Shown here in pieces: positions 36,866 to 51,912 of a DNA stretch of 62,019 nt. The stretch's first letter is position 1. Each line of letters opens with the position of its first letter. The position numbers and the translations under genes are program-made. Source of the stretch: Bacillus sp. EB01 (GTDB lineage Bacteria; Bacillota; Bacilli; Bacillales; Cytobacillaceae); the NCBI RefSeq assembly GCF_000613125.1, contig NZ_HG964497.1, positions 26,590 through 88,608 of the forward strand. Reading direction: 5' to 3'. Below the pieces are notes generated by a model. That model made no database searches and was not told the origin of the DNA. It saw only the letters and a program-made list of their open reading frames with translations.

Positions 36866-37084
36866 TTTATAAACTTGTTCGATTTAACACCCTACTATAG
36901 CACTAAAATGATTATCGTCATTTAAAAGACGTTAGAAGTTATATACTCTTTAACTGAAATAATTTTCAGATAATTGGGACGTTTCGCTCAGTGCGGCATG
37001 ATGATTGGAGGTGCAAAAAGAGTACACGTTCGCACTAAAGTGTATCCGCTTACAAACTACTATTTTTATAGGAGATGGCTACTA

Positions 37085-40000
37085 TTGAAGAAACTAGTTA
37101 AGAAACTTATGGTAACACTGCTCGTAGCACTGCTAATCTCATCTACCCTCCCCTTTTCCCGGCAATCAACTTCAGCAGCTGAAGCCGATCGTTGGAAAGA
37201 GCTAAGTGTTCAAAATGGAGGTTTTGAGGCAAAACCATCATCCGGAACAAATCTGCCTTCCTGGGTCTATTGGTCCGGCGGCCTTAAATCTGGAATGAGC
37301 ATCTCCAATGAAGTCGTCTATGCAGGTAATCAGAGCTTGGCCGTGAATAATACCGGATCCATAGGATTATTTAGTCAGGAAATTGATGTCACCGAAGGAG
37401 GCCAATATAAATTAACAGCAAAGCTTCATGTTAAGGAGTTAACAGGCAAACCAGGGATCTGGCTGCGCTGGTACAATGACCAGGGAAAGAATTTCACAGA
37501 CACTCCAAGATACTTTGATGTCCCAGCATTAAATGAATGGCAAACGGTTGAAATCGAAGTAACTGCCCCAACAGGTGCAACCGGGCTAAAGGTCTTCATT
37601 TATCAGCCCACCACATCCAAGATGAAAGGTTACTATGATGAAGTAAAGCTTTTTGAGAAGGAATCAAGCGTCCTCGATTTCCCTTTCGAATTTGGAGAGC
37701 CAATCAATCATGGCCCTGCTGCTTTAGCGGCTAAATCCCAAGGAGTAGCAATTGGTGATGGCGAGCTTTACTACGCAACAAACGGTTCACCTGCCACCTT
37801 TTATGCCGCTGATGCTGTAACCGGTAAAAAAATCTTTTCACAGGACCTGCCTGGAAGTGATGTAGTCTGGGCAATGGTCATCGGTACGGACGGCAATGTT
37901 TATTTCGCAGGTACTTATAACGGAATTTTATACCGTTATGTTGTAAAAGAAAAACGACTTGAACAGCTGGGGAAAAACCCTTCCGATAATTGGGTTTGGC
38001 AGCTGGAGGCCTCAAAAGACGGAAAGATTTACGGAGCTACATATCCAAATGCAAAGGTGTTTGAGTATGATATCAACTCCTCCCAATTCAAAGACTTAGG
38101 CACTTTTTACGAAGGCCAGCAGTATGCCCGCGGGCTTGGGATTACCGATGAAAGCCTATATGTGGGAACTGGCACTACTGCTTATTTAATGAAGATGGAT
38201 TTACAATCCGGTGAAAGAACAGAGATTAAGACGCCTATAACAGGAGTATCTACGCAAATATCAAATATTTGGGAATATGGCAGCAATATTTTTGTCGCCT
38301 ACGGAACTTCCCTTGTTACCATTGATAAAACAACTGGGGAAGAGAAAAATACAATGAATTGGCAGGATGAACATACGTTTGACGGGCTTATCTCCCCTCC
38401 TTCTCCTTATGACGAAAATATCATCTATTACATTAATAAAAATACTCAGCAGCTGTGGACATATGATATGAGGACACATGAGCAGGCAAAGGTAGAACCG
38501 ACTGTCCAATTGCCGCCTACACCGGCGAAAGCGATCCGCTGGATTAAGGATGAAAGCGGCAAAGATGTACTGGCGATTTTACATCACCAGATTGAATATT
38601 CACTTTACGACCCGACAACAAATACTGTCAAGGTCAGCTATCCTGAAGTAGCCATGCAGGGACTATTAATGCAAAGCCTTGAAATTGGTGAAGACCAAAA
38701 GATTTATATGGGCGGTTACCAGGGGTCATTTGGTGTTTTTGATACGGCTAGTGACGAGTATATCCTTCACGAACGCGATCCGCACCAGATCGAAGGGATT
38801 GGATTCCTAAATGGTGATGTTTACCTAGGCACCTATGGCGGTGCGAGAATTTTTAAATATGACCCAGAACTGCCGTTTCATTACTCAGGTGGTGTAAAAG
38901 GTGATAATCCCGAGATGGTATATGATATCGGGGATGACCAGAGCAGGCCTTTCACTTTTACATCAGGTGATAACAAGCTCTTTGTAGGAACCATTTCCGA
39001 TTATGGACGGTTAGGCGGAGCGTTAACAGTATATGACTCTGAAACAGGCAAATGGAACACGATTCGCAATATCATAGAAAACCAAAGCATCATTGGGTTA
39101 GCTTACCATAATGGAACAGTGTTTGGCGGATCAACCACAGCTGGCGGCCTTGGCATCACCCCTACCGAGCCAAAAGCTAAAATGTTTGAATATAATGCTG
39201 AAACTGGTACACATGAAGTATTTTACCTTCGTGTTGAAGGATTAGAAAAGCCCGAAATGATTGGAGAGCTTTCAGTCGGACCCGATGGAAACCTTTGGGG
39301 TGTAGCGTGGGGCTTAGATAAGGCTGGTGCCTATAACACAGTGGTCTTTGCAATGAATCCCGACAGCAGAGAAATCGTGAAAAGTACCCAGATTCATAAA
39401 GGTGTAAATAGAGGAAGCCAGTGGAGGCCGTTCTTTCTTCGCTGGGATAAACAGGGCTACCTGTATACAACAGCAGCCAGGAAATTGACGGTCATCGACC
39501 CAGAAACAATGAAAAGCAAGGTTCTGGTTCCGGGTACGGTCCAATTAATGGACCTCGATGATGAAGGTAATATCTACTACACAGCCGATGAAAATTTATA
39601 TCAGTTACCAGTTCCATTAGAAAAGGGCATCTTATCTATCAAAAATGAATCGATGCTGCAAGGCACCGATCAATACATTGATTTGACTGTAACGCTCGTA
39701 AATGGAAACACCATCAATTTAAAGGGAACCGACATTGAATGGTTTAATTCCAACCCGGCTGCCGCCGACTTGAATGATGGTAAAATCACAGCTAAAAATG
39801 CTGGGACGACAGAAATATATGCGAAGGTTTCCTATAACGGAGAAGAACTCACTACCAATACAATCAAGGTAACAATCGAAGTAACAACAGATACACTCTC
39901 ACAACAAATTTTAAAGCTTGAAGAAGCGGGAACCATTCCCCATTCTTTGGCCAGACAATTGACCAATCGATTAGCACAGGCTGAGCACCATTATGAAAAA

Positions 40001-40132
40001 GGAAGAACAAAACAAGCATTAAAGCATCTCGATGATTTCCGTCAGCATTTGGATAACAGCAGTATTGAGCAATCGATGAAAGATACATTACACGGTAATC
40101 TTGATTCAATTGAAGCTGGATATACAAATTAA
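37085..40132 (+). CDS. Secreted beta-propeller protein with CBM, Ig-like and FIMAH-like domains
   Basis: About 1015 residues. Signal peptide with AEA-type cleavage near residue 35. Then a carbohydrate-binding-module-like jelly roll of about 150 residues (NGGFEAKPSSGT...YYDEVKLFE), then a long beta-propeller region with repeats such as DGNVYFAGTYNG, EDQKIYMGGYQG and DGNLWGVAW. Then a bacterial Ig-like domain (STSIEWFNS-type stretch, KITAKNAGTTEIYAKV) and a C-terminal FIMAH-like helical domain. TTG at 37085 after AGGAGATGG fits the signal peptide better than upstream codons. Likely binds or cleaves an extracellular polysaccharide; some lyases are propellers, but no catalytic residues are assigned. 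Paralogue at 49687. Confidence 0.83.
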   Translation: MKKLVKKLMVTLLVALLISSTLPFSRQSTSAAEADRWKELSVQNGGFEAKPSSGTNLPSWVYWSGGLKSGMSISNEVVYAGNQSLAVNNTGSIGLFSQEIDVTEGGQYKLTAKLHVKELTGKPGIWLRWYNDQGKNFTDTPRYFDVPALNEWQTVEIEVTAPTGATGLKVFIYQPTTSKMKGYYDEVKLFEKESSVLDFPFEFGEPINHGPAALAAKSQGVAIGDGELYYATNGSPATFYAADAVTGKKIFSQDLPGSDVVWAMVIGTDGNVYFAGTYNGILYRYVVKEKRLEQLGKNPSDNWVWQLEASKDGKIYGATYPNAKVFEYDINSSQFKDLGTFYEGQQYARGLGITDESLYVGTGTTAYLMKMDLQSGERTEIKTPITGVSTQISNIWEYGSNIFVAYGTSLVTIDKTTGEEKNTMNWQDEHTFDGLISPPSPYDENIIYYINKNTQQLWTYDMRTHEQAKVEPTVQLPPTPAKAIRWIKDESGKDVLAILHHQIEYSLYDPTTNTVKVSYPEVAMQGLLMQSLEIGEDQKIYMGGYQGSFGVFDTASDEYILHERDPHQIEGIGFLNGDVYLGTYGGARIFKYDPELPFHYSGGVKGDNPEMVYDIGDDQSRPFTFTSGDNKLFVGTISDYGRLGGALTVYDSETGKWNTIRNIIENQSIIGLAYHNGTVFGGSTTAGGLGITPTEPKAKMFEYNAETGTHEVFYLRVEGLEKPEMIGELSVGPDGNLWGVAWGLDKAGAYNTVVFAMNPDSREIVKSTQIHKGVNRGSQWRPFFLRWDKQGYLYTTAARKLTVIDPETMKSKVLVPGTVQLMDLDDEGNIYYTADENLYQLPVPLEKGILSIKNESMLQGTDQYIDLTVTLVNGNTINLKGTDIEWFNSNPAAADLNDGKITAKNAGTTEIYAKVSYNGEELTTNTIKVTIEVTTDTLSQQILKLEEAGTIPHSLARQLTNRLAQAEHHYEKGRTKQALKHLDDFRQHLDNSSIEQSMKDTLHGNLDSIEAGYTN

Positions 40133-40316: not shown

Positions 40317-40499
40317 TTAAAATTTTAATTTGAATTCATTGATGAATTCATTATAATCAAGGTCGAGTATTTCGCAGCACCGTTTAACTTCTGCATAGAA
40401 ATCCATGTCAGAAGTCACAGGGCGGTCGCGGTTTACGTAATAAAACTGAACAAGCTCAAATAATTCAGCAGCTACTTTGACTTTTTCAACTTTATCCAA
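40317..40499 (-). CDS. Small soluble hypothetical protein
   Basis: 60 residues, acidic and helical, no membrane segment (ELFELVQFYYVNRDRP, then LDLDYNEFINEFKLKF). Preceded by a GGGGGAC ribosome-binding-like stretch, and 14 bp after the dihydroorotase-like gene, so it is the likely last gene of that operon. Not recognised. Confidence 0.6.
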   Translation of the reverse strand: MDKVEKVKVAAELFELVQFYYVNRDRPVTSDMDFYAEVKRCCEILDLDYNEFINEFKLKF

Positions 40500-40513
40500 A
40501 TGTTCCGTCCCCC

Positions 40514-41938
40514 TTATTTATTTCCACTGAAAACCTTTTCACTGTTAGCCTCTGGCACGACCATCTTTCCGATTGGACCTGATACGATGTTCCCATCTTC
40601 CATGACAGTAACTCCCCTGACAATGGTCTGGACGGGAACCCCCTTTATAGGGAACTGGTCAAATGCGGTAACCTTGCTTTTACTATGGAGGTTTTCTCTT
40701 TTAATGACCATTTCTTTCTCCATGTCTACGATGGTGATATCTGCATCCGTTCCCACGGCCAGCGAGCCTTTTTGCGGATAAATACCAAACTGCCTGGCAG
40801 GGTTTCCGGATAATACCTCGCAAACCTGTTTTAAAGTAACTTTTCCTTTGCTGACAGCATTCAGCATGAGCGGAGCTAGGGTTTCAACACCACACATGCC
40901 AGCAGGAATTGACCATAAGTCACCGTCTTTTTCTTCCTCAGTATGTGGGGCATGGTCGGAACATACAATGCTGACCGTACCATCCTGGATACCGCTCCAC
41001 AGTTCATCCTGATCCTCCTTATATTTTACGGGCGGATACACCTTCATTTGTGGTCCGACTTTTTCATAATCCTCATTGCTCAAAAACAGGAAATGAGGAC
41101 ATGTTTCCGATGTAATCGGATAGCCTTCCTTTTGTGCATCACGAACGAGGCGTAAAGATTCTCCCGCGCTTACGTGTAGGATATGCAGGCGTGTCCCGAG
41201 CTCTTTTGCCATCGAAATCCCTGTTTGAACTGTCAATACTTCGGCAAGGTTCGGCCTGCCTTCAAGCAATGCTTCATAATCGCGCCTTCCTGATATCTCC
41301 ACCTGCTGTGTCAGCCTTTGGATAAGTTCATTGTTTTCAGCATGGATGGCAAGAATCTGGCCAGTTTTCTCAACTTCCTTGAAGATATCATATACCTCTC
41401 CATCGGGAAGCGGCGGGATCACACCTTTTTCTCCTTCTTTGTAGTTGTACATCAACTGATATGTCTCACTGTTGATCGCATAACCCCAGAAGAACTTAAA
41501 GCCGATGACGCCCGCTTCATGCAGGGGGACAATGTCCTTTCTGTTCAAATCGCCAAGGCAAATCGCCCAAATTCCAAAATCCACATGGGCTTTTGCAGAT
41601 AGATTTTCCTTCTGTTTGAGAAGGTTATCAACATTGTTGATTGGCGGATTCGTATTTGGCATTTCGAAAACCATCGTGACTCCGCCCGCGGCAGCCGCTC
41701 TCGTACTGTGATAAAAATCTTCCTTGTACTCAGCACCAGGGTCCCTTGAGTGGACATGTGTGTCAATGAAGCCTGGAAGTACATACTTTCCTTCGGCATC
41801 TGTCGTTTTGGCCGCTCCCCCCGCTAGTTCTGTTTCAGAAACAGCAGCAATCTTCCCGTCCCTAATATACAAATTCCCTTTGACAAATTCCGTTCCTGAA
41901 TAAATGAAGCCATTTTTAATGATATGATCCCACGCCAT
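40514..41938 (-). CDS. Cyclic amidohydrolase: allantoinase / dihydroorotase / hydantoinase group
   Basis: 474 residues of the allantoinase-dihydropyrimidinase-dihydroorotase family. First metal pair HVH (61-63) followed by SRDPG. Likely carboxylated lysine K148 in GFKFFWGY, ligand H199 in IHAEN, H255 in LHILHVSAG, and the catalytic Asp in CSDHAPH. RDPG after HVH is typical of allantoinases and type I dihydroorotases. Allantoinase would be the default annotation, but neighbours are PyrD- and PyrK-like rather than urate genes, so hydrolysis of dihydroorotate (or a dihydropyrimidine) is at least as likely. Overlaps the PyrD-like gene by 23 bp. Confidence 0.9.
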   Translation of the reverse strand: MAWDHIIKNGFIYSGTEFVKGNLYIRDGKIAAVSETELAGGAAKTTDAEGKYVLPGFIDTHVHSRDPGAEYKEDFYHSTRAAAAGGVTMVFEMPNTNPPINNVDNLLKQKENLSAKAHVDFGIWAICLGDLNRKDIVPLHEAGVIGFKFFWGYAINSETYQLMYNYKEGEKGVIPPLPDGEVYDIFKEVEKTGQILAIHAENNELIQRLTQQVEISGRRDYEALLEGRPNLAEVLTVQTGISMAKELGTRLHILHVSAGESLRLVRDAQKEGYPITSETCPHFLFLSNEDYEKVGPQMKVYPPVKYKEDQDELWSGIQDGTVSIVCSDHAPHTEEEKDGDLWSIPAGMCGVETLAPLMLNAVSKGKVTLKQVCEVLSGNPARQFGIYPQKGSLAVGTDADITIVDMEKEMVIKRENLHSKSKVTAFDQFPIKGVPVQTIVRGVTVMEDGNIVSGPIGKMVVPEANSEKVFSGNK

Positions 41939-42851
41939 GCTTTCCGCTCCCTTCCACTTGGCCGATGATTTCTTTTAAACTATTAATGTCATACATCTCC
42001 ATATACTCATTTATTTCCTGCAAGATCGTCAGCATCACAGTCGGATTGATAAAATTGGCGGTGCCCACCTGTATTGCTGTTGCACCGGCCAGCATCATCT
42101 CAATTGCATCCTCCCCGTTCATAACACCGCCACAGCCAATGATAGGCAGCCTGCAAACCTTGTAAACCTGATGTATCAACCGGACAACAAGCGGCTTGAT
42201 TGCCGGGCCTGATATGCCGCCAATCATATTGCCGATTTTCGGCTTCCTTGTATGGACGTCAATTGCCATGGCAACAAACGTATTTGCAACGGTAAGGGCA
42301 TCCGCCCCGCCTTCTTCAGCAGCCCTGGCGATGCGTCCAATATCGGTCACGTTCGGGGACAGCTTGGCAATGACAGGTTTGTCGGTCACCTGACGGACCG
42401 CTTTGACGAGCTGGCGGGTTATCGTTTCATCCATCCCGAAGGCAACCCCGTTATTTTTTAAATTAGGGCAGGAGATATTGAGTTCAAGTGCGGCTACTTC
42501 CTCCATGGCTGCCAGCTTTTCACTCATTTCCGCAAATTCTTCAATGCTGTCGGCCGAGATGCTCGAAATCAGCGGACTTTTAAATTGCCCATAAAATGGG
42601 ACCGCCACCTTTTGATAATAATCCAGCCCTTTGCTTTGAATGCCTATCGAATTAATCATTCCCCCGGTTGTTTCACAAATCCGTGGTGTCGGATTGCCTT
42701 TCCTCGGCGTTTTGGTTATGCTTTTCGGCAGCAGGGCGCCAAGCTGATTGAAATCAAGCACCCCTGCCATCTCTTCACCAAAAGTTCCTGATGCCGGCAT
42801 GATTGGATTTTTCAGCGTAAGGCTGCCAATTGAGACTTCCATATTCCTCAT
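41916..42851 (-). CDS. PyrDB-like dihydroorotate dehydrogenase, catalytic subunit
   Basis: 311 residues, class 1B DHODH fold binding FMN. Substrate motifs of true DHODH are kept: NSIG (67-70), NISCPN (125-130, with the catalytic-base cysteine C128) and the Asn in ANTF (190). FMN region GCGGVMNGEDA and VGTANF. PreA-type dihydropyrimidine dehydrogenases have a different loop (SCPH), so orotate/dihydroorotate is the best guess. In this operon it would run from orotate to dihydroorotate with NADH electrons. Start 42851 overlaps the PyrK stop (ATGA). The usual pyr genes (pyrB, carAB, pyrF, pyrE) are absent. Confidence 0.9.
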   Translation of the reverse strand: MRNMEVSIGSLTLKNPIMPASGTFGEEMAGVLDFNQLGALLPKSITKTPRKGNPTPRICETTGGMINSIGIQSKGLDYYQKVAVPFYGQFKSPLISSISADSIEEFAEMSEKLAAMEEVAALELNISCPNLKNNGVAFGMDETITRQLVKAVRQVTDKPVIAKLSPNVTDIGRIARAAEEGGADALTVANTFVAMAIDVHTRKPKIGNMIGGISGPAIKPLVVRLIHQVYKVCRLPIIGCGGVMNGEDAIEMMLAGATAIQVGTANFINPTVMLTILQEINEYMEMYDINSLKEIIGQVEGSGKHGVGSYH

Positions 42852-43636
42852 AAGAACACCACCTTTTCCAGTGGCAGTACCGGACCATCCTGGCAAAGGC
42901 GGATCGTCCGAATTTCATCGCCTTCTTTAATATCACAAACACAGGCAAAGCAAGCACCCATCGCACAGCCCATATTTTCTTCAAGAGCAATTTCCGAAAA
43001 TAACATATATCGCTCAGCAAGCTCCCTCGTTAACAGGGCCAGCCTTTGGGAACCACAAGTATAAACAGCATCGATTTGCCGGGTACGAATGATTTCTTTG
43101 GCAAGCGTCCTCACGGCTGCCGGATCGCTGGAACCGTTCCCGTCATGAACAACAAACGTAATAACCCCAGCTTTATTAAGCTCTTTCTCTACTAAAATAT
43201 CTTCCCGGGATCGGGCACTTAGAATTGAATAGCATGGAATCCCCGTTTCACCTGCCTTATAGGCAAGTGCTGAAAGAGTCGCTATCCCGACACCTCTTGC
43301 AATCAGCAGCAGGCCTTTGCCCCCATCTCCGAGTGTAAACGTATTTCCGAGCGGCCCAAGAATGTCCAGGAGCTCGCCAGGTTTCCTCTCAGCCAATTTT
43401 TTCGTCCCCGCACCTTTAACCAAATAAAGAAATTCCAATATGTTATCCCTGTTATTAATTCGGTAGATGCTAAATGGCCTCCTCAGCAGCGGAGAATAAT
43501 CATCCGTTGTCCTTATATGAAAAAATTGTCCTGGTTTAACATCAGCTACTGTCCAGTCAGGAATTCTGATTTTCATATGGCAATAACGGCGGCTAATATA
43601 ATCATTCGATAGTATTTCTGCCTTAGTAAGCTTCAT
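42848..43636 (-). CDS. PyrK-like electron-transfer subunit (FAD, 2Fe-2S)
   Basis: 262 residues: FAD-binding barrel with RRPFSIYRI (52-60), NAD-binding part with the loop LLIARGVGIATL (canonical PyrK has GGGVG), and a C-terminal 2Fe-2S site CAMGACFACVC (224-234) plus C248. Passes electrons between NAD(H) and the PyrD-like subunit. Start and stop overlap its neighbours by 4 bp each (ATGA), which fits a fixed stoichiometry with PyrD. The extra cysteine C234 is also seen in PyrK proteins. Confidence 0.9.
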   Translation of the reverse strand: MKLTKAEILSNDYISRRYCHMKIRIPDWTVADVKPGQFFHIRTTDDYSPLLRRPFSIYRINNRDNILEFLYLVKGAGTKKLAERKPGELLDILGPLGNTFTLGDGGKGLLLIARGVGIATLSALAYKAGETGIPCYSILSARSREDILVEKELNKAGVITFVVHDGNGSSDPAAVRTLAKEIIRTRQIDAVYTCGSQRLALLTRELAERYMLFSEIALEENMGCAMGACFACVCDIKEGDEIRTIRLCQDGPVLPLEKVVFL

Positions 43637-44898
43637 AGCTGGCCTCCAACTTCAAGTGAAGAGGATGATACTTTTGCGTAACAGAGCACCGCTTCCTCAA
43701 GAACATCGACCCCAAGCATGATGTCATCAAAGTCTGTATGCTCATTCGGATGGTGGCTAAGACCATCAACTGATGGAATAAAAACAAGGCCAACCGGCCC
43801 GAAACCAGTCATGTTCATGGCATCATGCCCCGCTCCGCTTTGCATCAACCGATAAGGAAGCTGTTTTTCTTCACATATCTTTGCAAGTTCCCCGCATATT
43901 TCTTCAGACAAAAGGACAGGTTCCTCAAGACTAATTTCTTTGCAATCTATACCAAGCTGCCTTTCCTTTTGTACCGTGGCCAGGGTTTCGTGTAAACAAT
44001 CCAGCACCCGATGCCTGGATTCTAAAGAGGAAGATCGGATATCAATTTTCATTTCGACTTCTCCCGGGATAACATTCATCGCTCCTGGATGGACAGCCAA
44101 CACCCCGACTGTTGCAACAGTCCCAAAGTCTGCTTCCTTTTTTGCGGCCTTTTCCAGCTCAAGTGCAATTTCAGCAGCACCTAGAAGTGCATCTTGCCTC
44201 ATATCCATTGGAGTCGTGCCCGAGTGAGAAGCTTTTCCCGAAATAGTCACAATAAATCTGGCTGGAGCAGCAATACCTGTTACAATCCCAATTTTCTTTT
44301 GTTCGGTTTCAAGGACAGGCCCCTGTTCTATATGCATTTCAAAGAATGCTTTAAAAGTCTCCTTTTCCCTGTGTGCTTCATTAATGCTGTCAAAGTCAAG
44401 GGCGCAAAGGGAAAATGCTTTTTCAATTGTAATCCCGTCACGGTCTTTAAGAGTCCGGTGCTTGCCTTTGTCTATGCGGCCAGCCATTGCTTTGCTTCCG
44501 AGAGTCGCAACACCAAATCTCGCTGACTCCTCACAGGCGAACGAAATTAATTCAATCGGATGTTCAGTTGTGATTCCCCGGTCATTTAGCCGGTTGATGA
44601 TCTCTAGTCCCGCCGCGACTCCTACAACACCATCATACTTGCCTCCTTCGTAAACCGAGTCGATATGGGAACCAATAACGACAGGCGGCAGTGTATTATT
44701 TTTCCCATCCCTACGCGCAATCAGATTGCCGGCATTGTCCAATTTGACAGACATCCCCGCGTCCTTGCACATTCTCATCAAAGCATGTGTACAAGCCTGT
44801 TCTTCATTTGAATAGGCAATCCTGGTGATACCCTTTTGCCCTGAATTATACTGGTTAATTTTCGCGAGCAGTGTTTCATATCGTTTCCGTTTATCCAT
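43633..44898 (-). CDS. M20 N-carbamoyl amino acid / allantoate amidohydrolase
   Basis: 421 residues of the M20 peptidase-like carbamoylase family (AllC, HyuC, beta-ureidopropionase, ureidosuccinase). Metal ligands: H78 in GSHIDSV, D89 in KYDG, the Glu pair in CEESARFG, the His in MHIEQGPVL and the last His in HHPNEHT. The dimerisation-domain stretch SGKASHSGTTPMDMRQDA is the family hallmark. It splits a carbamoyl group off an amino acid. After the dihydroorotase-like step the expected substrate is N-carbamoyl-L-aspartate, giving aspartate, CO2 and ammonia. Exact specificity is not readable. Confidence 0.9.
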   Translation of the reverse strand: MDKRKRYETLLAKINQYNSGQKGITRIAYSNEEQACTHALMRMCKDAGMSVKLDNAGNLIARRDGKNNTLPPVVIGSHIDSVYEGGKYDGVVGVAAGLEIINRLNDRGITTEHPIELISFACEESARFGVATLGSKAMAGRIDKGKHRTLKDRDGITIEKAFSLCALDFDSINEAHREKETFKAFFEMHIEQGPVLETEQKKIGIVTGIAAPARFIVTISGKASHSGTTPMDMRQDALLGAAEIALELEKAAKKEADFGTVATVGVLAVHPGAMNVIPGEVEMKIDIRSSSLESRHRVLDCLHETLATVQKERQLGIDCKEISLEEPVLLSEEICGELAKICEEKQLPYRLMQSGAGHDAMNMTGFGPVGLVFIPSVDGLSHHPNEHTDFDDIMLGVDVLEEAVLCYAKVSSSSLEVGGQL

Positions 44899-44915
44899 AG
44901 GAGTGCCCTCCCTTA

Positions 44916-46223
44916 TTAGCCAGAGGCTATCGCAATATATCCTTTGCCACTTTCAATCTGTATCGTTGTACCAAACTCCGAAGAAAGCTCAGCAAGTTCA
45001 TTCAGAATCCGTTCGCCATCCACTTCGTTTGCAAATGACGGCCTCCCTTTTCCAGCTCTGCTTTTTTCAAAACCAAGAGTGATGGGCAAGAGTTCTATCC
45101 CTGTAATTAAATCCTCTTCTATTGAAAAAGAAGCAATAACTGATTCAAACACCTTTCGATTGGCAGCAAGGCCCCTCGTTCCTTTCTTGCTGCGGGCATC
45201 CATCCCGTCAGCCGTCGTATGGCGGGAATCAAGATCGTACAGCTGATAAAATTCAGCAGGCTGCTTTTCTACGGTATCATTTTGAAAAATTAAATCTCCC
45301 AAGCTGTAAAAAATCGGCCTGTTCCTATAAATCTGTATTCCACGTAGAATATGAGGGCCGTGCCCGATGACGGCGTGCGCTCCTTCGTCTATGCAAAACC
45401 TGCTGAATTCCTTTAAAAAACCAGCCGGTTTATCCTTATTGGTCCCTTTCATTTCATGGGCATGAAGACTGACAAACACGGTATCCGCTTGCCTGGCTGC
45501 CTCCTTGATTGCCTTAGCAATCCTTTTCGCGTCTTCCTGGTCCATATAGGTTTCGGTCCCCGGCTCACCTTCTTCAAAAAGAAGATTCCCAAATTGATAG
45601 GATCCGCTGTGGTCTTTCCAGAATCCTTCACTAACATTCAAATTCCTTGCAGCATTTACATCAGTGCTTGCATCGATTTGTTTTAGATTCTGCATGGTTT
45701 CGCTGCTGATTCTGTGTACTTGTTTATGTCCGAGCGAATTCACACCCGGCCTTCCAGGTACATCTGGCCTCTGCTCCCCTGCCTTGTGCCATTGGTCAAA
45801 AGAAGATGTTACTGAAATCAGGGCAACCCTTCCGTTTTTGGTTTCGAGGTATTTTGGCTGCCCTGCTTCAGCCAAATTCCTTCCAATTCCTGCGAATACC
45901 CAATCATCTTTTTCAAGCGCATGAATTGTTGAAAGCAACCCACCGTGCAGCCAATCAAGGCTATGATTGTTAGCACAGGCCAGCAAATTGAACCCCAACC
46001 ATTTGAGGTCTTTTAAAACGTTCGGCCTGGCTGCTGCCCACGTACCTCCGCTTGTTGCTGATGGCGCCTGGTCAAAATTGTGCAGGACGACTTCAAAATT
46101 CGTAAACCTGACGTCACAGTCCAAAAGAAATTCCTTTATCTTGTTTAAATTTACTTCGTCTCTCGGCAGCCTCTGGGTAATGAAAGAATCTCCCGTTACA
46201 GCTACTTTTATTGGTTCACTCAT
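44916..46223 (-). CDS. CapA-family metallophosphatase-like protein, cytoplasmic
   Basis: 435 residues resembling the CapA/PgsA metallophosphoesterase domain: VAVTGDSFITQRLP at the front, FTNFEVVLHN, CANNHSLDW, FVSLHAHEM and HGPHILRGIQIY, the metal-site pattern of the family. Unlike capsule CapA it has no N-terminal membrane anchor or signal peptide, so it acts in the cytoplasm. Tight spacing (17 bp) to the carbamoylase and 14 bp to IclR ties it to the pathway, but what it does there is unknown. Confidence 0.85.
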   Translation of the reverse strand: MSEPIKVAVTGDSFITQRLPRDEVNLNKIKEFLLDCDVRFTNFEVVLHNFDQAPSATSGGTWAAARPNVLKDLKWLGFNLLACANNHSLDWLHGGLLSTIHALEKDDWVFAGIGRNLAEAGQPKYLETKNGRVALISVTSSFDQWHKAGEQRPDVPGRPGVNSLGHKQVHRISSETMQNLKQIDASTDVNAARNLNVSEGFWKDHSGSYQFGNLLFEEGEPGTETYMDQEDAKRIAKAIKEAARQADTVFVSLHAHEMKGTNKDKPAGFLKEFSRFCIDEGAHAVIGHGPHILRGIQIYRNRPIFYSLGDLIFQNDTVEKQPAEFYQLYDLDSRHTTADGMDARSKKGTRGLAANRKVFESVIASFSIEEDLITGIELLPITLGFEKSRAGKGRPSFANEVDGERILNELAELSSEFGTTIQIESGKGYIAIASG

Positions 46224-46237
46224 TTTCTTACTCCTTT

Positions 46238-47011
46238 TTACAGTTTGATGGAGGTAAGCAAATGCATGGATTTTAAATGCTCACTTGCTTTTTGCGATAC
46301 AGCTTTTAATTCCCGGATGATGGCATCCTCTTCCTGTTCTATGTAGGTGTTCTCTCCCACAACGCTAATGCTCAACGATGTTTCCCTGTCTTCATGGAAA
46401 ATAGGGACAGAAATCGCTGAAACGCCAACTTCCAACTCCTGCAGACAGAAAGCCACCCCTTGATGAAGGACCCTGCTTAGCTCATGTTTCAATGCTGCGA
46501 TATCTGTCAATGTATGAGGCGTGATTGGCCTAATCGATTCCTTCCCAAGGCAGGAATCAATGATGTGTTGTTCTTTATAGGCCAAAATCGCTTTTGAAGC
46601 TGCAGTGCAATAAAAGGGCATCCGCTGGCCAACATGCACGAAGAACTTATTCCGCAAATCGGAAGGCTGGTGGGTATGGATACAATAGACCTGATCACCC
46701 TGGAATCTGCTTAAGTACGAATATAGGCCAGTTGCTCTTGAAACTTCCTCGCAATACTGCCCCATCAAACCAATAGGGTCCTGTGAACGCAGGAAACGGC
46801 TACCCCAAAACATCGCCTTAGGACCCATCATATAGTTTTTCGTTTGAAAATTTTGCGTCACGAGTTGGTGATGGACCATGCTGGAAAGCATACGGTGGAT
46901 TGTACTTTTGCTTAGATTGGTTTCCCTTGACAGATCGCTGATGCCTATTCCATCAATTGGGTGTTCACTTATGCAATCCATGACCTCTGTAAAACGGTTT
47001 AACCACTCCAT
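46238..47011 (-). CDS. IclR-family transcriptional regulator
   Basis: 257 residues: N-terminal winged helix (ISDLSRETNLSKSTIHRMLSS) and a C-terminal GAF-like effector domain with GQRMPFYCTAASKAILA and the FCLQELEVGVSAISVPI signature. First gene of a minus-strand operon running through CapA-like, carbamoylase, PyrK-, PyrD- and dihydroorotase-like genes. Palindromes upstream of it and upstream of the MFS gene suggest it controls both and itself; the effector is probably a pathway intermediate. Confidence 0.93.
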   Translation of the reverse strand: MEWLNRFTEVMDCISEHPIDGIGISDLSRETNLSKSTIHRMLSSMVHHQLVTQNFQTKNYMMGPKAMFWGSRFLRSQDPIGLMGQYCEEVSRATGLYSYLSRFQGDQVYCIHTHQPSDLRNKFFVHVGQRMPFYCTAASKAILAYKEQHIIDSCLGKESIRPITPHTLTDIAALKHELSRVLHQGVAFCLQELEVGVSAISVPIFHEDRETSLSISVVGENTYIEQEEDAIIRELKAVSQKASEHLKSMHLLTSIKL

Positions 47012-47039
47012 TATTCGTCTTCCTTTGTTCTGTAGTATC

Positions 47040-47056
47040 GTTCTGTTGTACGGGAC
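47040..47056 (-). promoter_or_regulatory. IclR-type operator before iclR
   Basis: GTTCTGTTGTACGGGAC, 29 bp before the iclR start. It matches 14 of 17 positions of GTTCCGTTGAACGGAAC found before the MFS gene. Confidence 0.65.
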
Positions 47057-47082
47057 AACGTTCCATTTTTAAAAGAATAATT

Positions 47083-47109
47083 TTCCCTGTCCAGATTTCA
47101 GACAGGGAA
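47083..47109 (-). terminator. Terminator of the MFS gene
   Basis: Nine-base-pair stem TTCCCTGTC / GACAGGGAA with a 9-base loop, then AAAATTATTCTTTT on the transcribed strand. Separates the MFS unit from iclR. Confidence 0.75.
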
Positions 47110-47117
47110 GGCCGTTA

Positions 47118-48353
47118 TTAAGTAAGTTCCTTTCCTTTTGTTTCCGGAATCAAAAATAGAAATGCGAGTGCAGATAAAACATAGATTCCTGAAATTAGAC
47201 TAAGGGCATAGCTTAATGAATGATTCAAAGAGATATATCCGATAATGAATGGTGCAAAGCCCGCCACAGCTCTGCCGATATTGAAGATGATATTCTCAGC
47301 TGACGATCTGGCTTCGGTCGGGTAATGTTCAGCAAGCAAGGCACCAAAACCGCCCATCATTCCATTTACGAAAAATCCAAGGATTCCGCCAAGTGCCAAG
47401 AGGACAGCCATTGACGATTGCTGGAAATAAATCCAGACAATGATTGCCGAAGCCACCAGGAATATCAGATACGAAGGCCTGCGGCCAATTCTGTCAGCCA
47501 AGTAGCCGAATACCATTATTCCAATGATCATTCCGGTAATCGTAATAACCGTCCACCATGTGGTTTTGTTGAACGTTACACCCATTTCAGTTGCGAGCAT
47601 GGTAGGCATCCAGGTCATAATTCCATAAAAACCGAAGTTTTGGACACTGGTAGCAACGATTAAGCCGAGAGTAATTTTTGTTGTTTTGGCTGATGAAAAC
47701 AAATGTCCGACGGAGACATTATTTTTGTTTTCATTTTTCATTTTTGTCCAAACTTCCGGTTCTTCGAGGTTCCGGCGGGACCAGAATGCCAGGATTGCAG
47801 GGAGCACTCCTGCCACAAATACTCCCTGCCAGCCGAATTTAGGGGAAATGAAAAGGACAGCCAATGTTGCAAGGACGATACCAAACTGGAACCCGGTTGC
47901 AACAACTGCCGTAGCCCTGGCTCGATACTTCTTGTGCCACGCTTCACTGACAAGCGTCATTCCGATCCCGAACTCACCGCCGAGTCCAAGTCCGGCAAGG
48001 AACCTGAAAACAGCCAATGTTTCAAGATTTGGGGACAGAGCACATAAGCCGGTGAACACTGAAAAAATTAAAATAGTCCAGGTAAACACGCGAACGCGTC
48101 CATATTTATCTGCTAAGATACCAAAGACAATTCCGCCAAGCACAGAACCAAGCAGTGTGATCGTAGAAACACTGCCCGCCTGTGCAGCATTGATTCCAAA
48201 ATAAGCAATAATAAGCGGCATCGTGAATGCAAGTATCATCATATCCAGACCATCCATTGCATAACCAATCGTCGAAGCCCAGAGCGTTTTCCACTGATAG
48301 CCAGTAATCTTACCAGGTTCTGTTTCAATATTCTTTTGAACAGCTGTCTCCAT
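47118..48353 (-). CDS. MFS acid transporter, aromatic acid/H+ symporter type
   Basis: 411 residues, 12 hydrophobic segments. Loop 2-3 motif GILADKYGRVRVF, repeated as GYLADRIGRRPSY in the second half, and GLGLGGEFGIGMTLVSEAW in helix 4-5, as in aromatic-acid/H+ symporters (AAHS group; benzoate, shikimate, sialate relatives). Such carriers import small carboxylates, which fits uptake of orotate or a related acid for the neighbouring catabolic operon. Own promoter region with a perfect IclR-type palindrome, and its own terminator. Confidence 0.9.
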   Translation of the reverse strand: METAVQKNIETEPGKITGYQWKTLWASTIGYAMDGLDMMILAFTMPLIIAYFGINAAQAGSVSTITLLGSVLGGIVFGILADKYGRVRVFTWTILIFSVFTGLCALSPNLETLAVFRFLAGLGLGGEFGIGMTLVSEAWHKKYRARATAVVATGFQFGIVLATLAVLFISPKFGWQGVFVAGVLPAILAFWSRRNLEEPEVWTKMKNENKNNVSVGHLFSSAKTTKITLGLIVATSVQNFGFYGIMTWMPTMLATEMGVTFNKTTWWTVITITGMIIGIMVFGYLADRIGRRPSYLIFLVASAIIVWIYFQQSSMAVLLALGGILGFFVNGMMGGFGALLAEHYPTEARSSAENIIFNIGRAVAGFAPFIIGYISLNHSLSYALSLISGIYVLSALAFLFLIPETKGKELT

Positions 48354-48403
48354 GATTTACCCCCTTGATTCATCCCTTCCAGATAGGAAAGTGAAATTTT
48401 GTT

Positions 48404-48422
48404 TGTTCCGTTGAACGGAACA
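48404..48422 (-). promoter_or_regulatory. IclR-type operator before the MFS gene
   Basis: TGTTCCGTTGAACGGAACA, a perfect 19-bp palindrome about 50 bp before the ATG. The form TTCCGTT-N-AACGGAA is close to known IclR boxes. Confidence 0.75.
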
Positions 48423-48592: not shown

Positions 48593-49336
48593 TTAATCAA
48601 AATTAAAGCCCTGTTTTTTAATAAAATCCTTTAAATGTACACGACGTGGTTTACTTAAGTATTCAGCCATTTGTTTCGTCCACCCTTCAGTGCGTACACC
48701 ATTTGTTCTTCTTGTGTAGTAATCAGACGAAATTTCCTCATAATTTGCCAACCCTTCAAGAATAGCCTCCTTCGGTTTATAGTGGTTATAATGAACAACC
48801 GCTCCTATGGGAGTCCTTGGTTTTTGCCACGGTTCCTGGTCAGGGTAACCAAGACACATCCCCATCATGGGAATAGTATATGGCGGAAGTCCTAACAGAT
48901 CTTTTACCTTATCAGGATTATTGCGGATTCCCCCTATCATCACACCACCCAGACCGTAAGCCTTTGCAGCAATAAAGGCATTTTCGGCAGCAAGCGCAGT
49001 GTCAACCGCTGCGACCAATACGTTTTCAACCTCATTTATTTCAAATTTTGTATCCCACATTTCACACGTTAGGCTGAGACGATAAAAGTCCGCGCAAAAC
49101 ACTAAAAAAACAGGACAGGCCGCTACGTACTTTTGGTTCCCCGCTATTTCGGACAGTTTTTCCTTTTTATCCTGATCATCTACAACAATAATACTGTATG
49201 CCTGTACATTATGGGATGACGGAGCCCATTGGGCACAAGCAAGAATTTCCGTAAGAACATCTTCAGGAATCGGATCAGGTTTATATCTTCGGATGGATCG
49301 ATGACTTTGGAGCAGATTTATCGTTTCATTTCGCAA
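48593..49336 (-). CDS. Nitroreductase-family flavoprotein (NfsA/NfrA type)
   Basis: 247 residues of the FMN-dependent nitroreductase fold: HRSIRRYKPDPIPEDVL at the front (the RSxR FMN-phosphate site), WAPSSHNVQAY, and GGVMIGGIRNNPDKVKDLLGLP in the second half, followed by the C-terminal extension of the NfsA/Frp type. Uses NAD(P)H to reduce quinones or nitro compounds. TTG at 49336, seven bases after AAAGGAGA, is the chosen start. Not clearly part of the IclR regulon since I found no palindrome before it. The usual annotation would be NADPH-dependent oxidoreductase. Confidence 0.9.
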   Translation of the reverse strand: MRNETINLLQSHRSIRRYKPDPIPEDVLTEILACAQWAPSSHNVQAYSIIVVDDQDKKEKLSEIAGNQKYVAACPVFLVFCADFYRLSLTCEMWDTKFEINEVENVLVAAVDTALAAENAFIAAKAYGLGGVMIGGIRNNPDKVKDLLGLPPYTIPMMGMCLGYPDQEPWQKPRTPIGAVVHYNHYKPKEAILEGLANYEEISSDYYTRRTNGVRTEGWTKQMAEYLSKPRRVHLKDFIKKQGFNFD

Positions 49337-49644
49337 TGAAGCATCTCCTTTCAACTTTTTAGTGTAGATAGTTGCTGAATATTTTAAATAGTCGGCAAAT
49401 TATATTATACAAATGTTTAAAACTAACGTAAATTCTAATGCAAGATTGATTTGCTCTATTATATTTCTACTGTAACAGCAAATAGGAATGTTTACTCATT
49501 TCCCTTAACCATGCCCAAAAGGTCATAAATATTTAAAACAAGTAAAGTACGCTTACTTGGAACCTTTGCAAACTAAGGTCTGTAAGCAACTTGAACTCGG
49601 AAAGGAATTTTTATCTCAGATATATTGTTCGCAAACTATCAGGA
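49337..49644. other. Intergenic region, nothing recognised
   Basis: AT-rich stretch of about 300 bp that must hold the promoter of the nitroreductase gene. I found no repeat, small gene or known operator in it. Confidence 0.4.
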
Positions 49645-49686: not shown

Positions 49687-51912
49687 TTAAATAGAGGTGA
49701 GAATATGCCGTAATTGTTCACGCATGTCTAGTTCTATATCCGTTTCTTTGGCATTATCCAAATGTTTCAAAGCATCCTGTAAATGTTTGCTTGCTTCCTC
49801 CTGCCTTCCCATATCACGATGATGGATGGCTGTTTTCAGTGAATTAATTAGCTGCTGACTGACTGAATTTGTGATATTGCCATAAACCGTTTCCCGTTCC
49901 ACAAACTTCAAAGCTGACTCTAGCGTGTCGGATACTTCAATTTTCATTAAATCCACTTTATTAACGTAATAGATATTTCCATCGTTGCCGATTGTCATTA
50001 GCTCAGTCACAGTGTTGGTTAACACCTCATGTTCCAACGTAACAGGGTCAATTTCCGTTAAGTTGCCAGCAAGATTTGTGTACATAAGACCATCCTCACT
50101 CCAGCGAATATGGATTGGTCTCCATCTTCCGTAATCTTTTACTTCAGGAAAGATGTTTTTGCTTTTCACAATTTCCAGTGTATCCGGATCCATTGCAAAA
50201 ATTGCTCCTGCTGCTGCTGACCAAAGCAAACCGTCAGGACCAAGGCTCATCCCGCTAATCATTTTTGGCTGGACTGTGACACCTGGTATCTCCGGTACAA
50301 ACTCAGTAATTTTTTCACCCTTTTCTATATCCCAAACGAATATCTTTGCAGCAGGCTCAGTTGGGTCAATTCCCAATCCGCCGGCAACGGTTGTAGAGCC
50401 ATATAGCTTGCCATTCACTTCTGCCAGCCCGGCGATGGCTTGATTATGGACAACATTTGGATATACAGCTGTGTCTTTTACATTGGCAGGATCCAGGACA
50501 GTTAAAGAGCCGCCAAGATACCCGTAGTCGGGAATTGTACCAATGAATAATTTATTTTGAGCGGCAGTCATAATAAATGGGCGGTCCTGATGAGGGATAT
50601 CGTAAATCTGTTTAGGCGTTGAAGCTGGATTCGTAGCATCCATTTCAAAAATGGTAGCACCAGTATAAACACCAAAATACATCTTATCACCAAGAGCTAC
50701 CATACCTTCTGCCTGCCCTAACGTGAAATTGCGGTTTACATTTGTTTCCGGATTATAAACGGCACCTTTACCACCAGGGTAGCCACTTAAATATAAATTG
50801 CCTTCAGGCCCTTTTTCCAACGTTTGAATTGGAATTGGATTTCCTACAATCGGTAATTGAGTTGTTTTTACTTTTTTAGTTTGCAAGTTCATATACGTGA
50901 CTTGGCCGCCAAATTGGACAGTAACCAAAGATTTGCCCGGCAAGTCTGGATCGTTCTCTACTTCAACCCAAGCTGTGTTCCGCAAGAAAGTTCCGAACAC
51001 GACTTTAGTATCGGTCGCGCTTAGCGTATTAAAATCCACTTCCATTAATTTACTGCCTTGCAGGAAGTATACTTTGTTACTTCCAGGCAAGCCATGTATT
51101 AATCGGATTCCTTTACTGTTTGTGTAGTACTTGTCACTCCATTGGCCAGTTTCTGTATCATAAAACAGGAGGGTGTTACTTCCGCCGCCAACTCCTGCGA
51201 CGATATATTTGCCTGCCGCATCCATTTGCCAAACACTGCTGCCAGGAACAACATGGTCAGGAACCTTAATTTTTTCATATTCGCCCGTTTCTACATCCAA
51301 TTTCACGATTGCATTCTCAACGCCAATGCCTAAATACAAGTACCCATTATGGTAGGCTGTGGATCTGGAATAGCTTTGGCCGGGGGCAATACTGCCATAA
51401 TCCTTCATTTCACCTGTTTTTGGGTCATAGCGGCCAGCTTTTGCATTTGGAAATGAGCCAAAATAGACACGTCCTTCTTCATCATAGGACAAGCCGTATA
51501 CAACACTCTCACCGATTCCCCCTAGGTTCTTTACTTCCTTCGTTACAGGAGAATATTCATAAAGATATCCATTGCCTCCAATGTAGACATTGCCATTTGG
51601 TACCGTGATATGTGTCCAAACGGCCCCCGTTCCTTCTAAAGGATAAGTTCTTAAAACTTCCTGGCTTTTAAGGTCTACAACCTGAAAGATAGCCGGGCTG
51701 CCGCTTGAAGTTGTGTACATGATATCCCGTCCATCTTCAACCCCATATGTAGAGTCATAGACTGCTACACTTTGAATAAGTGAACCTAGATTCCTTGGTT
51801 CTGAATATCTCTTTCCTGACTCTGCATGGGCGGGATTACCCATAAAGAAAGAAGAAACAATTAACACAAATGTAGTTAAAAGAATTGCGAACTGTTTTGA
51901 AAACGCCTTCAT
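49687..51912 (-). CDS. Secreted beta-propeller protein with FIMAH-like domain
   Basis: 741 residues. Signal peptide with cleavage after GNPAHA (about residue 30), then a propeller of repeated four-strand blades (NGNVYIGGNGYL, EGRVYFGSFPN, GNLYLSGYPGG, DGLLWSAAAG), then a C-terminal about 80-residue helical FIMAH-like domain. Closely parallels the propeller of the 37085 protein: for example both have TTxAGGLGIxPTEPxAKxF and GTIxDYGxLGG. It lacks the CBM and Ig-like domain of that paralogue. Binds or processes an extracellular substrate, perhaps a polysaccharide; function unknown. ATG 51912 after AAGGAG. Confidence 0.82.
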   Translation of the reverse strand: MKAFSKQFAILLTTFVLIVSSFFMGNPAHAESGKRYSEPRNLGSLIQSVAVYDSTYGVEDGRDIMYTTSSGSPAIFQVVDLKSQEVLRTYPLEGTGAVWTHITVPNGNVYIGGNGYLYEYSPVTKEVKNLGGIGESVVYGLSYDEEGRVYFGSFPNAKAGRYDPKTGEMKDYGSIAPGQSYSRSTAYHNGYLYLGIGVENAIVKLDVETGEYEKIKVPDHVVPGSSVWQMDAAGKYIVAGVGGGSNTLLFYDTETGQWSDKYYTNSKGIRLIHGLPGSNKVYFLQGSKLMEVDFNTLSATDTKVVFGTFLRNTAWVEVENDPDLPGKSLVTVQFGGQVTYMNLQTKKVKTTQLPIVGNPIPIQTLEKGPEGNLYLSGYPGGKGAVYNPETNVNRNFTLGQAEGMVALGDKMYFGVYTGATIFEMDATNPASTPKQIYDIPHQDRPFIMTAAQNKLFIGTIPDYGYLGGSLTVLDPANVKDTAVYPNVVHNQAIAGLAEVNGKLYGSTTVAGGLGIDPTEPAAKIFVWDIEKGEKITEFVPEIPGVTVQPKMISGMSLGPDGLLWSAAAGAIFAMDPDTLEIVKSKNIFPEVKDYGRWRPIHIRWSEDGLMYTNLAGNLTEIDPVTLEHEVLTNTVTELMTIGNDGNIYYVNKVDLMKIEVSDTLESALKFVERETVYGNITNSVSQQLINSLKTAIHHRDMGRQEEASKHLQDALKHLDNAKETDIELDMREQLRHILTSI

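Follow-up and report, generated by a model that had tools for sequence, protein, structure and literature searches.

Why does a Bacillus whose genome encodes the complete de novo pyrimidine pathway carry a second gene pair for dihydroorotate dehydrogenase, and would this pair serve to make orotate or to consume it? The question is raised by a stretch of 62,019 nucleotides from Bacillus sp. EB01 (assembly GCF_000613125.1, contig NZ_HG964497.1; hereafter ‘the window’), which represents bases 26590-88608 of a single-contig 5.28 Mb genome. On its minus strand, and in the order of transcription, lie genes for a major facilitator superfamily (MFS) transporter, an IclR-family regulator (iclR), a CapA/MslH-like protein (capA), an amidohydrolase of the M20 family (hereafter M20), PyrK, PyrD and a cyclic amidohydrolase, with the run proper, from iclR onwards, occupying 40514-47011. 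Since gaps of 14 bases (iclR-capA) and 17 bases (capA-M20) are followed by overlaps of 4 (M20/pyrK), 4 (pyrK/pyrD) and 23 bases (pyrD/amidohydrolase), the genes from iclR to the amidohydrolase constitute, by layout, a single transcription unit. The initial annotation had proposed that this unit degrades orotate by running biosynthesis in reverse. The genes named there (PyrK, PyrD, amidohydrolase, M20, IclR and symporter) are indeed all present on the minus strand in a tight IclR-led run, although the capA gene inside that run had been overlooked and the interval given started at 40317, about 200 bases past the stop of the last gene.

Based on the evidence collected here, we consider it probable that the cluster is a dedicated orotate-catabolic operon. 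The H+ symporter (or, in many relatives, a tripartite ATP-independent periplasmic (TRAP) transporter) would import orotate, PyrDK would reduce it with NADH to L-dihydroorotate, the amidohydrolase would open the latter to N-carbamoyl-L-aspartate, and M20 would split this product into L-aspartate, CO2 and NH3. Aspartate would then enter metabolism, proceeding straight to fumarate where the cluster carries an aspartate ammonia-lyase. Control would be exerted by IclR (by PucR in many relatives), probably via the sequence GTTCC-N7-GGAAC, and CapA may racemise the D-isomer of an intermediate.

PyrD and PyrK form a second set

The proposed orotate reductase, PyrD (41916-42851, minus strand), is the flavin mononucleotide subunit of a class-1B dihydroorotate dehydrogenase, as is evident from its scores of 382 bits for PRK07259 (cut-off 269) and 340 bits for TIGR01037 (cut-off 270). 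Its orotate-pocket positions agree in an alignment with those of L. lactis DHODB (1EP1): the residues which we take to be the orotate contacts (Lys, Asn-x-Ile-Gly, Asn/Cys/Asn of NxSCPN, and Asn-Thr) are present when the protein is aligned to 1EP1 and 26 biosynthetic PyrDs, and the Lys, the Asn of NSIG and the motif NISCPN are invariant in 45/45 cluster PyrDs. NSIG and NISCPN, on which the initial annotation had relied, are thus confirmed; cluster PyrDs mostly read NSIGIQS, and the biosynthetic ones NAIGLQN. PyrK (42848-43636, minus strand), the flavin adenine dinucleotide/[2Fe-2S] electron-transfer subunit on the NADH side, is recognized from its PF10418 [2Fe-2S] domain (49 bits; cut-off 23.9) and from the adjoining pyrD.

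A complete de novo operon (pyrB, pyrC, carA, carB, pyrK, pyrD, pyrF and pyrE, named from translations and two family searches) is located at ~4.08-4.10 Mb, outside the window, with a uracil-permease-like gene adjoining it. The initial annotation had made its proposal depend on such a second pyr set, and the proposal is supported by this spare set together with the active-site residues and the neighbours found in relatives, from which we infer substrate and direction. The same duplication is seen in 25 of 29 cluster-bearing genomes, chosen from loci with PyrDK, which encode two class-1B PyrDs above the curated cut-off. In these 25 the scores do not overlap (313-354 bits for cluster copies, 374-419 bits for the others), and the higher-scoring copy is flanked by pyrK and pyrF in 25/25 and by carB in 24/25 cases. 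Three of the four single-copy genomes encode a class-2 PyrD above cut-off, so that pyrimidine synthesis in them does not have to depend on the cluster PyrD; in the fourth, a Lachnospiraceae metagenome-assembled genome (MAG), the search detected no PyrD besides that of the cluster.

In a phylogenetic tree, 42 cluster and 26 biosynthetic PyrDs fall on opposite sides of one branch with a support of 100/100, and by this measure the cluster PyrD is a lineage apart from the biosynthetic enzyme. For 25 of the biosynthetic rows the label had been given by score first and then by the adjacent pyrK and pyrF (25/25). Four rows were removed before the final tree was built, namely one L060 row (the biosynthetic copy of that species), L104 and L136 (both very long) and L098 (a fused PyrK-PyrD frame); an initial tree that included them did not split the groups cleanly. 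L104 has a complete cluster, but its PyrD did not group with the cluster PyrDs in that initial tree and is absent from the 42-versus-26 tree.

In Brevibacillus centrosporus (L059:1-3582), the genes downstream of carB are pyrF-pyrE, with pyrK-pyrD missing at this site, and a class-2 PyrD is encoded in the genome instead; judged from this gene content, the class of the biosynthetic dehydrogenase is replaced in this species.

Cyclic amidohydrolase and carbamoylase

The cyclic amidohydrolase (40514-41938, minus strand), the proposed catabolic dihydroorotase, belongs to the dihydroorotase subfamily TIGR00857 (352 bits; cut-off 279). For the dihydroorotase of M. jannaschii, Arg60, Asn89 and His306 are reported as the residues holding the α-carboxylate of carbamoyl-aspartate (PMC12809426). 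Their counterparts here are R65, N95 and H332, of which the former two are conserved in 76/76 relatives sharing at least 48% identity and the latter in 75/76, with one gap. Alignment with solved structures indicates that (i) dihydroorotase 4yiw has all three carboxylate residues, (ii) L-hydantoinase 1gkr, the closest solved structure, lacks the Arg and the Asn while keeping the His, and (iii) allantoinase 3hm7 lacks the Arg and the His, with an Asn aligning behind a one-residue insertion. At the metal-bridging Lys position the protein has K148, again in 76/76 relatives, whereas bacterial type I dihydroorotases carry an Asp according to the same source (PMC12809426); the amidohydrolase therefore probably did not arise by recent duplication of the PyrC encoded in this genome.

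M20 (43633-44898, minus strand), the proposed ureidosuccinase, is an N-carbamoyl-amino-acid amidohydrolase by TIGR01879 (417 bits; cut-off 204), and its best solved relative is the N-carbamoyl-L-amino acid hydrolase 3n5f. The conserved His/Asp/Glu and Arg positions, for which we assume the roles usual in this family, are invariant in 54 aligned relatives.

Distribution and gene neighbourhood

A search of 193 genomes from the window's family yielded 10 matches to the amidohydrolase at 64-100% identity (its own included), followed by matches at ≤39%; PyrK, PyrD and M20 adjoin it in 9 of the 10. A broader scan covered 84,980 species' genomes, with the best 80 of 184 relatives being retained, and 83 of 89 loci were scored after dropping the duplicates L058, L062, L064 and L075 as well as L114 and L129, where an amidohydrolase frame was not detected. 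PyrD, PyrK and M20 together accompany the amidohydrolase in 41/83 loci, that is, in 41/76 at an identity of at least 48%. Broken down by identity, this combination is found in 37/54 loci at ≥60% identity (M20 in 44, CapA in 26 and an NfsA-like protein in 12), in 4/22 at 48-60% and in 0/7 below 48%. The hosts are Bacillaceae, Caryophanaceae, Sporolactobacillaceae, Paenibacillaceae (Brevibacillus), Alicyclobacillaceae and one Lachnospiraceae MAG, and since PyrDK-bearing clusters occur in the last four as well as in Bacillaceae, the ‘Bacillaceae’ form initially proposed was drawn too narrowly.

The neighbours of the amidohydrolase also bear on its product. Aspartate ammonia-lyase is encoded in 7/83 loci, 4 of them with PyrDK (one member was scanned, yielding 886 bits at a cut-off of 876, and the others were assigned by clustering). 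Carbamate kinase is present in 4/76 and aspartate transcarbamoylase (ATCase) in 2/76 loci, all in Clostridia, with members from L092 and L103 scoring 386 (cut-off 358) and 344 bits (cut-off 237); in place of M20, these two enzymes could release carbamoyl phosphate and ATP. Aspartate ammonia-lyase, and carbamate kinase with ATCase, thus point to N-carbamoyl-aspartate. In Sporolactobacillus putidus and Brevibacillus centrosporus, the cluster lies immediately behind pyrF-pyrE, a placement which we count among the indications of an orotate-related substrate.

Several loci deserve description in their own right. The clostridial L092, L100, L103 and L109 combine the amidohydrolase with carbamate kinase, partly with ATCase, with aspartate ammonia-lyase and with molybdenum hydroxylases of the xanthine-dehydrogenase type, and an ATP-yielding catabolic use of ATCase appears possible there. 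The Lachnospiraceae locus L104:3-13741 encodes a branched-chain-type ABC transporter, the amidohydrolase, CapA, M20, a PyrC-like dihydroorotase, PucR-like regulators, PyrK and PyrD (PyrC and PucR being named from translations), a content reminiscent of the reported physiology of Clostridium oroticum with its dihydroorotase and carboxymethylhydantoinase. A protein of the orotidine-monophosphate decarboxylase family is encoded in or beside the cluster at L053:12954-13910 and L102:13976-14635, the former being of the PRK13813 type (219 bits; cut-off 208). In L105, L106, L113, L126 and L130, a conserved pair of amidohydrolase and NfsA-like genes lies behind a gene of the deoxycytidine-triphosphate deaminase family, without PyrDK or M20 nearby.

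Import and regulation

The proposed orotate importer (47118-48353, minus strand) is an MFS transporter of the aromatic-acid/H+ symport type. The type of importer varies among loci and is throughout one for carboxylates, with the aromatic-acid/H+ symporter seen here and many relatives carrying TRAP DctPQM together with PucR as the regulator. A TRAP binding protein, 4NN3, is reported with orotic acid bound (PMC11668362). Among solved structures it ranks first for one cluster DctP, second for that of L102 and for a 14-sequence profile, third for that of L061, and 11th for a DctP whose locus has no PyrDK. A Lys replaces an Arg, as in 4NN3, in 21/21 aligned DctPs; these include the one from the locus without PyrDK, and the replacement is also found in 4ovs.

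The IclR-family regulator (46238-47011, minus strand), the product of the first gene of the run, is recognized by PF01614 and PF09339, both above their cut-offs. Upstream of the symporter gene lies a perfect 19-bp palindrome, TGTTCCGTTGAACGGAACA (48404-48422), and at lengths of 18-21 bp the window contains no other. Its core, GTTCC-N7-GGAAC, recurs with at most one mismatch in 8/10 symporter upstream stretches and 3/10 iclR ones, compared with 2.6% of 4000 random 220-base stretches from the same sequences. This survey comprised the window and nine IclR-type loci, several of them close kin, with L045 excluded as almost a duplicate of the window; because the pattern itself was derived from the window sequence, we note that 7/9 symporter stretches match without it. 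A weaker operator-like site upstream of iclR (47041-47055) has two mismatches to the pattern at 48406-48420, and matches as loose as this one arise readily by chance (5 seen, 2.0 expected). We regard the palindrome as the probable operator for IclR.

The CapA/MslH-like protein

The capA gene (44916-46223, minus strand) encodes a PF09587 protein whose best solved relative is the lasso-peptide epimerase MslH (8gq9). MslH epimerises the Cα of the C-terminal residue by means of Ca and two His/Asp dyads, as stated in PMC10406935. The window protein retains the full set of eight MslH residues for metal binding and catalysis, comprising four Ca ligands and two His/Asp dyads (8/8), and each is found in 28-30 of 30 CapA relatives, the remainder being gaps; since CapA proteins in general may possess these residues, the match is permissive. 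Against the curated MslH model the protein attains 292 bits, below the cut-off of 700. Dihydroorotate, N-carbamoyl-aspartate and hydantoin-5-acetate alike possess a stereocentre beside a carbonyl or carboxylate, and it is a speculative and somewhat doubtful idea that CapA is a new small-molecule racemase, that is, a metalloenzyme of the MslH kind which interconverts the D- and L-forms of one of these three compounds and takes the place of a hydantoin racemase. The cluster could then use racemic cyclic ureides besides orotate. One locus without CapA and PyrDK encodes a protein resembling EutA and arylmalonate decarboxylase, which we take to be a relative of hydantoin racemases.

Alternative explanations

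Several observations weigh against orotate catabolism. DHODB is reversible, and the direction of flux is therefore deduced from context. Some curated models also fall short: PyrK reaches 172 of 314 bits with the best of its PRK00054-family top matches, the symporter 321 bits with its top match TIGR00895 (cut-off 418.55), and none of the 25 best matches listed for the amidohydrolase is to an equivalog-level dihydroorotase model above cut-off (PRK09060, 343 of 482 bits). Moreover, where the amidohydrolase has Y301 and K305, 4yiw carries Asn and Arg, the TRAP binding protein is weak evidence for orotate import, and PyrD is not nearby in 17 of the 54 close relatives. Seven of the latter keep M20 and 10 have neither (two of these on contigs of <6 kb; in L087, M20-PyrK-PyrD lies ~6 kb away), and the amidohydrolase therefore also serves other contexts. 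The names of the best-scoring models would suggest the use of allantoin, allantoate or hydantoins in general: among the single matches of the amidohydrolase, an allantoinase model ranks first (354 of 631 bits), AllB is narrowly missed (343 of 358 bits), and M20 exceeds the cut-off of a subfamily model named allantoate amidohydrolase (471 versus 399 bits). Yet the amidohydrolase remains below every allantoinase equivalog cut-off, including the third (255 of 688 bits), the carboxylate ligands Arg and His are those missing from 3hm7, and PyrDK would be left without a role, so that we regard such use as very unlikely. Reductive catabolism of uracil or thymine by a system of the PreTA/PydB/PydC type, which employs a reductase, a cyclic amidohydrolase and a carbamoylase in the same order, is slightly less credible still. 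The class-1B PyrD attains 132 bits with the PreA model PRK08318 (cut-off 335), the amidohydrolase has carboxylate-binding residues, and relatives carry aspartate ammonia-lyase. No PreA-like match was found in this genome, where the next match after the two PyrDs scores 38 bits, and 15 further matches of 176-200 bits in the 29 related genomes resemble, by score and length only, separate PreA-type genes.

The hydantoin-5-acetate (5-carboxymethylhydantoin) pathway is a more serious contender, albeit an unlikely one. Here the amidohydrolase would produce N-carbamoyl-aspartate, CapA would racemise it, M20 would complete the degradation, and PyrDK would belong to a side branch. With L-hydantoinase 1gkr as the closest solved structure and CapA resembling an epimerase, the amidohydrolase, CapA and M20 are reminiscent of the hydantoinase/racemase/carbamoylase trio; the Lachnospiraceae locus encodes the amidohydrolase in addition to a separate PyrC-like dihydroorotase and PyrDK, and Mesobacillus harenae has M20, amidohydrolase and aspartate ammonia-lyase with an EutA/arylmalonate-decarboxylase-like protein at a site without PyrDK. 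However, this pathway leaves unexplained why PyrDK is present in 41/76 loci, and the carboxylate ligands suit dihydroorotate, with one enzyme being conceivably capable of both reactions. The location of the cluster directly after pyrF-pyrE in Brevibacillus centrosporus and Sporolactobacillus putidus might instead indicate a second biosynthetic or salvage set that makes or buffers orotate or UMP, but M20 would destroy a biosynthetic intermediate, an importer and control by IclR or PucR would be out of place, the PyrD lineage is separate, and a full pyr operon is present; of all alternatives we give this one the least credence. A plainly biosynthetic role was considered as well and was rejected in view of the full pyr operon in the genome and of the two PyrD lineages. 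The uracil, hydantoin and allantoin alternatives retained in the initial annotation are weakened by the active-site residues, by the failure to find a PreA-like match here, and by the aspartate ammonia-lyase, the carbamate kinase with ATCase and the TRAP transporters of relatives.

Flanking genes

Upstream of the symporter, an NfsA-like flavoprotein of the nitroreductase family (48593-49354, minus strand; PRK10765, 256 bits, cut-off 223) is encoded as a possible accessory, and a relative of it adjoins the amidohydrolase in several other loci. Proteins with a C-terminal FIMAH domain are encoded on either side of the cluster by genes pointing inward (36974-40132, plus strand; 49687-51912, minus strand); they share 33% identity and show weak matches to repeat (propeller-type) families. 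In genome G021, the cluster is likewise flanked by genes of similar length and strand. A PADLOC search gave no match.

Comparison with known systems

In the open-access literature we found no paper assigning genes to orotate catabolism by title or abstract, subscription journals lying mostly outside the scope of this search, and a dedicated, widespread and regulated orotate-catabolic gene set is apparently new, even though its chemistry is ordinary. The orotate reading provides a concrete regulated gene set for orotate degradation, found chiefly among Bacillales and in many cases in cultured type strains, together with a predicted orotate-responsive promoter and, in CapA and NfsA, two partners for enzyme discovery. 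On this reading, dozens of genes annotated as dihydroorotate dehydrogenase, dihydroorotase or allantoinase would have been given a misleading direction or name.

The cluster PyrDK shares family, subunits and pocket residues with the de novo class-1B enzyme, but represents a separate lineage, mostly has NSIGIQS for NAIGLQN, and adjoins a carbamoylase and an importer. PreTA/PydB/PydC comprise a reductase, a cyclic amidohydrolase and a carbamoylase acting in series, and the cluster has the same three-step series; its reductase, however, is of another family, its presumed substrate is carboxylated, and the product would be aspartate rather than β-alanine. The two hydrolase families are also those of the ergothioneine-type ErtD/ErtE, which act on homologous substrates one carbon longer (hydantoin-5-propionate and N-carbamoyl-glutamate), whereas the cluster enzymes remain under both curated cut-offs (327 of 650 and 404 of 520 bits). 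Likewise, CapA has all eight metal and catalytic residues in common with MslH, but stays well below the MslH model and is encoded in a catabolic rather than a peptide cluster. The closest parallel in reaction order is the orotate fermentation of Clostridium (Zymobacterium) oroticum, which proceeds by NADH-linked reduction of orotate through dihydroorotase and ureidosuccinase to aspartate, in the same order as proposed here. While that pathway is represented by the enzymes of an anaerobe, the system described here is a regulated run of genes that also encodes an importer, IclR and CapA and is found mostly in Bacillales.

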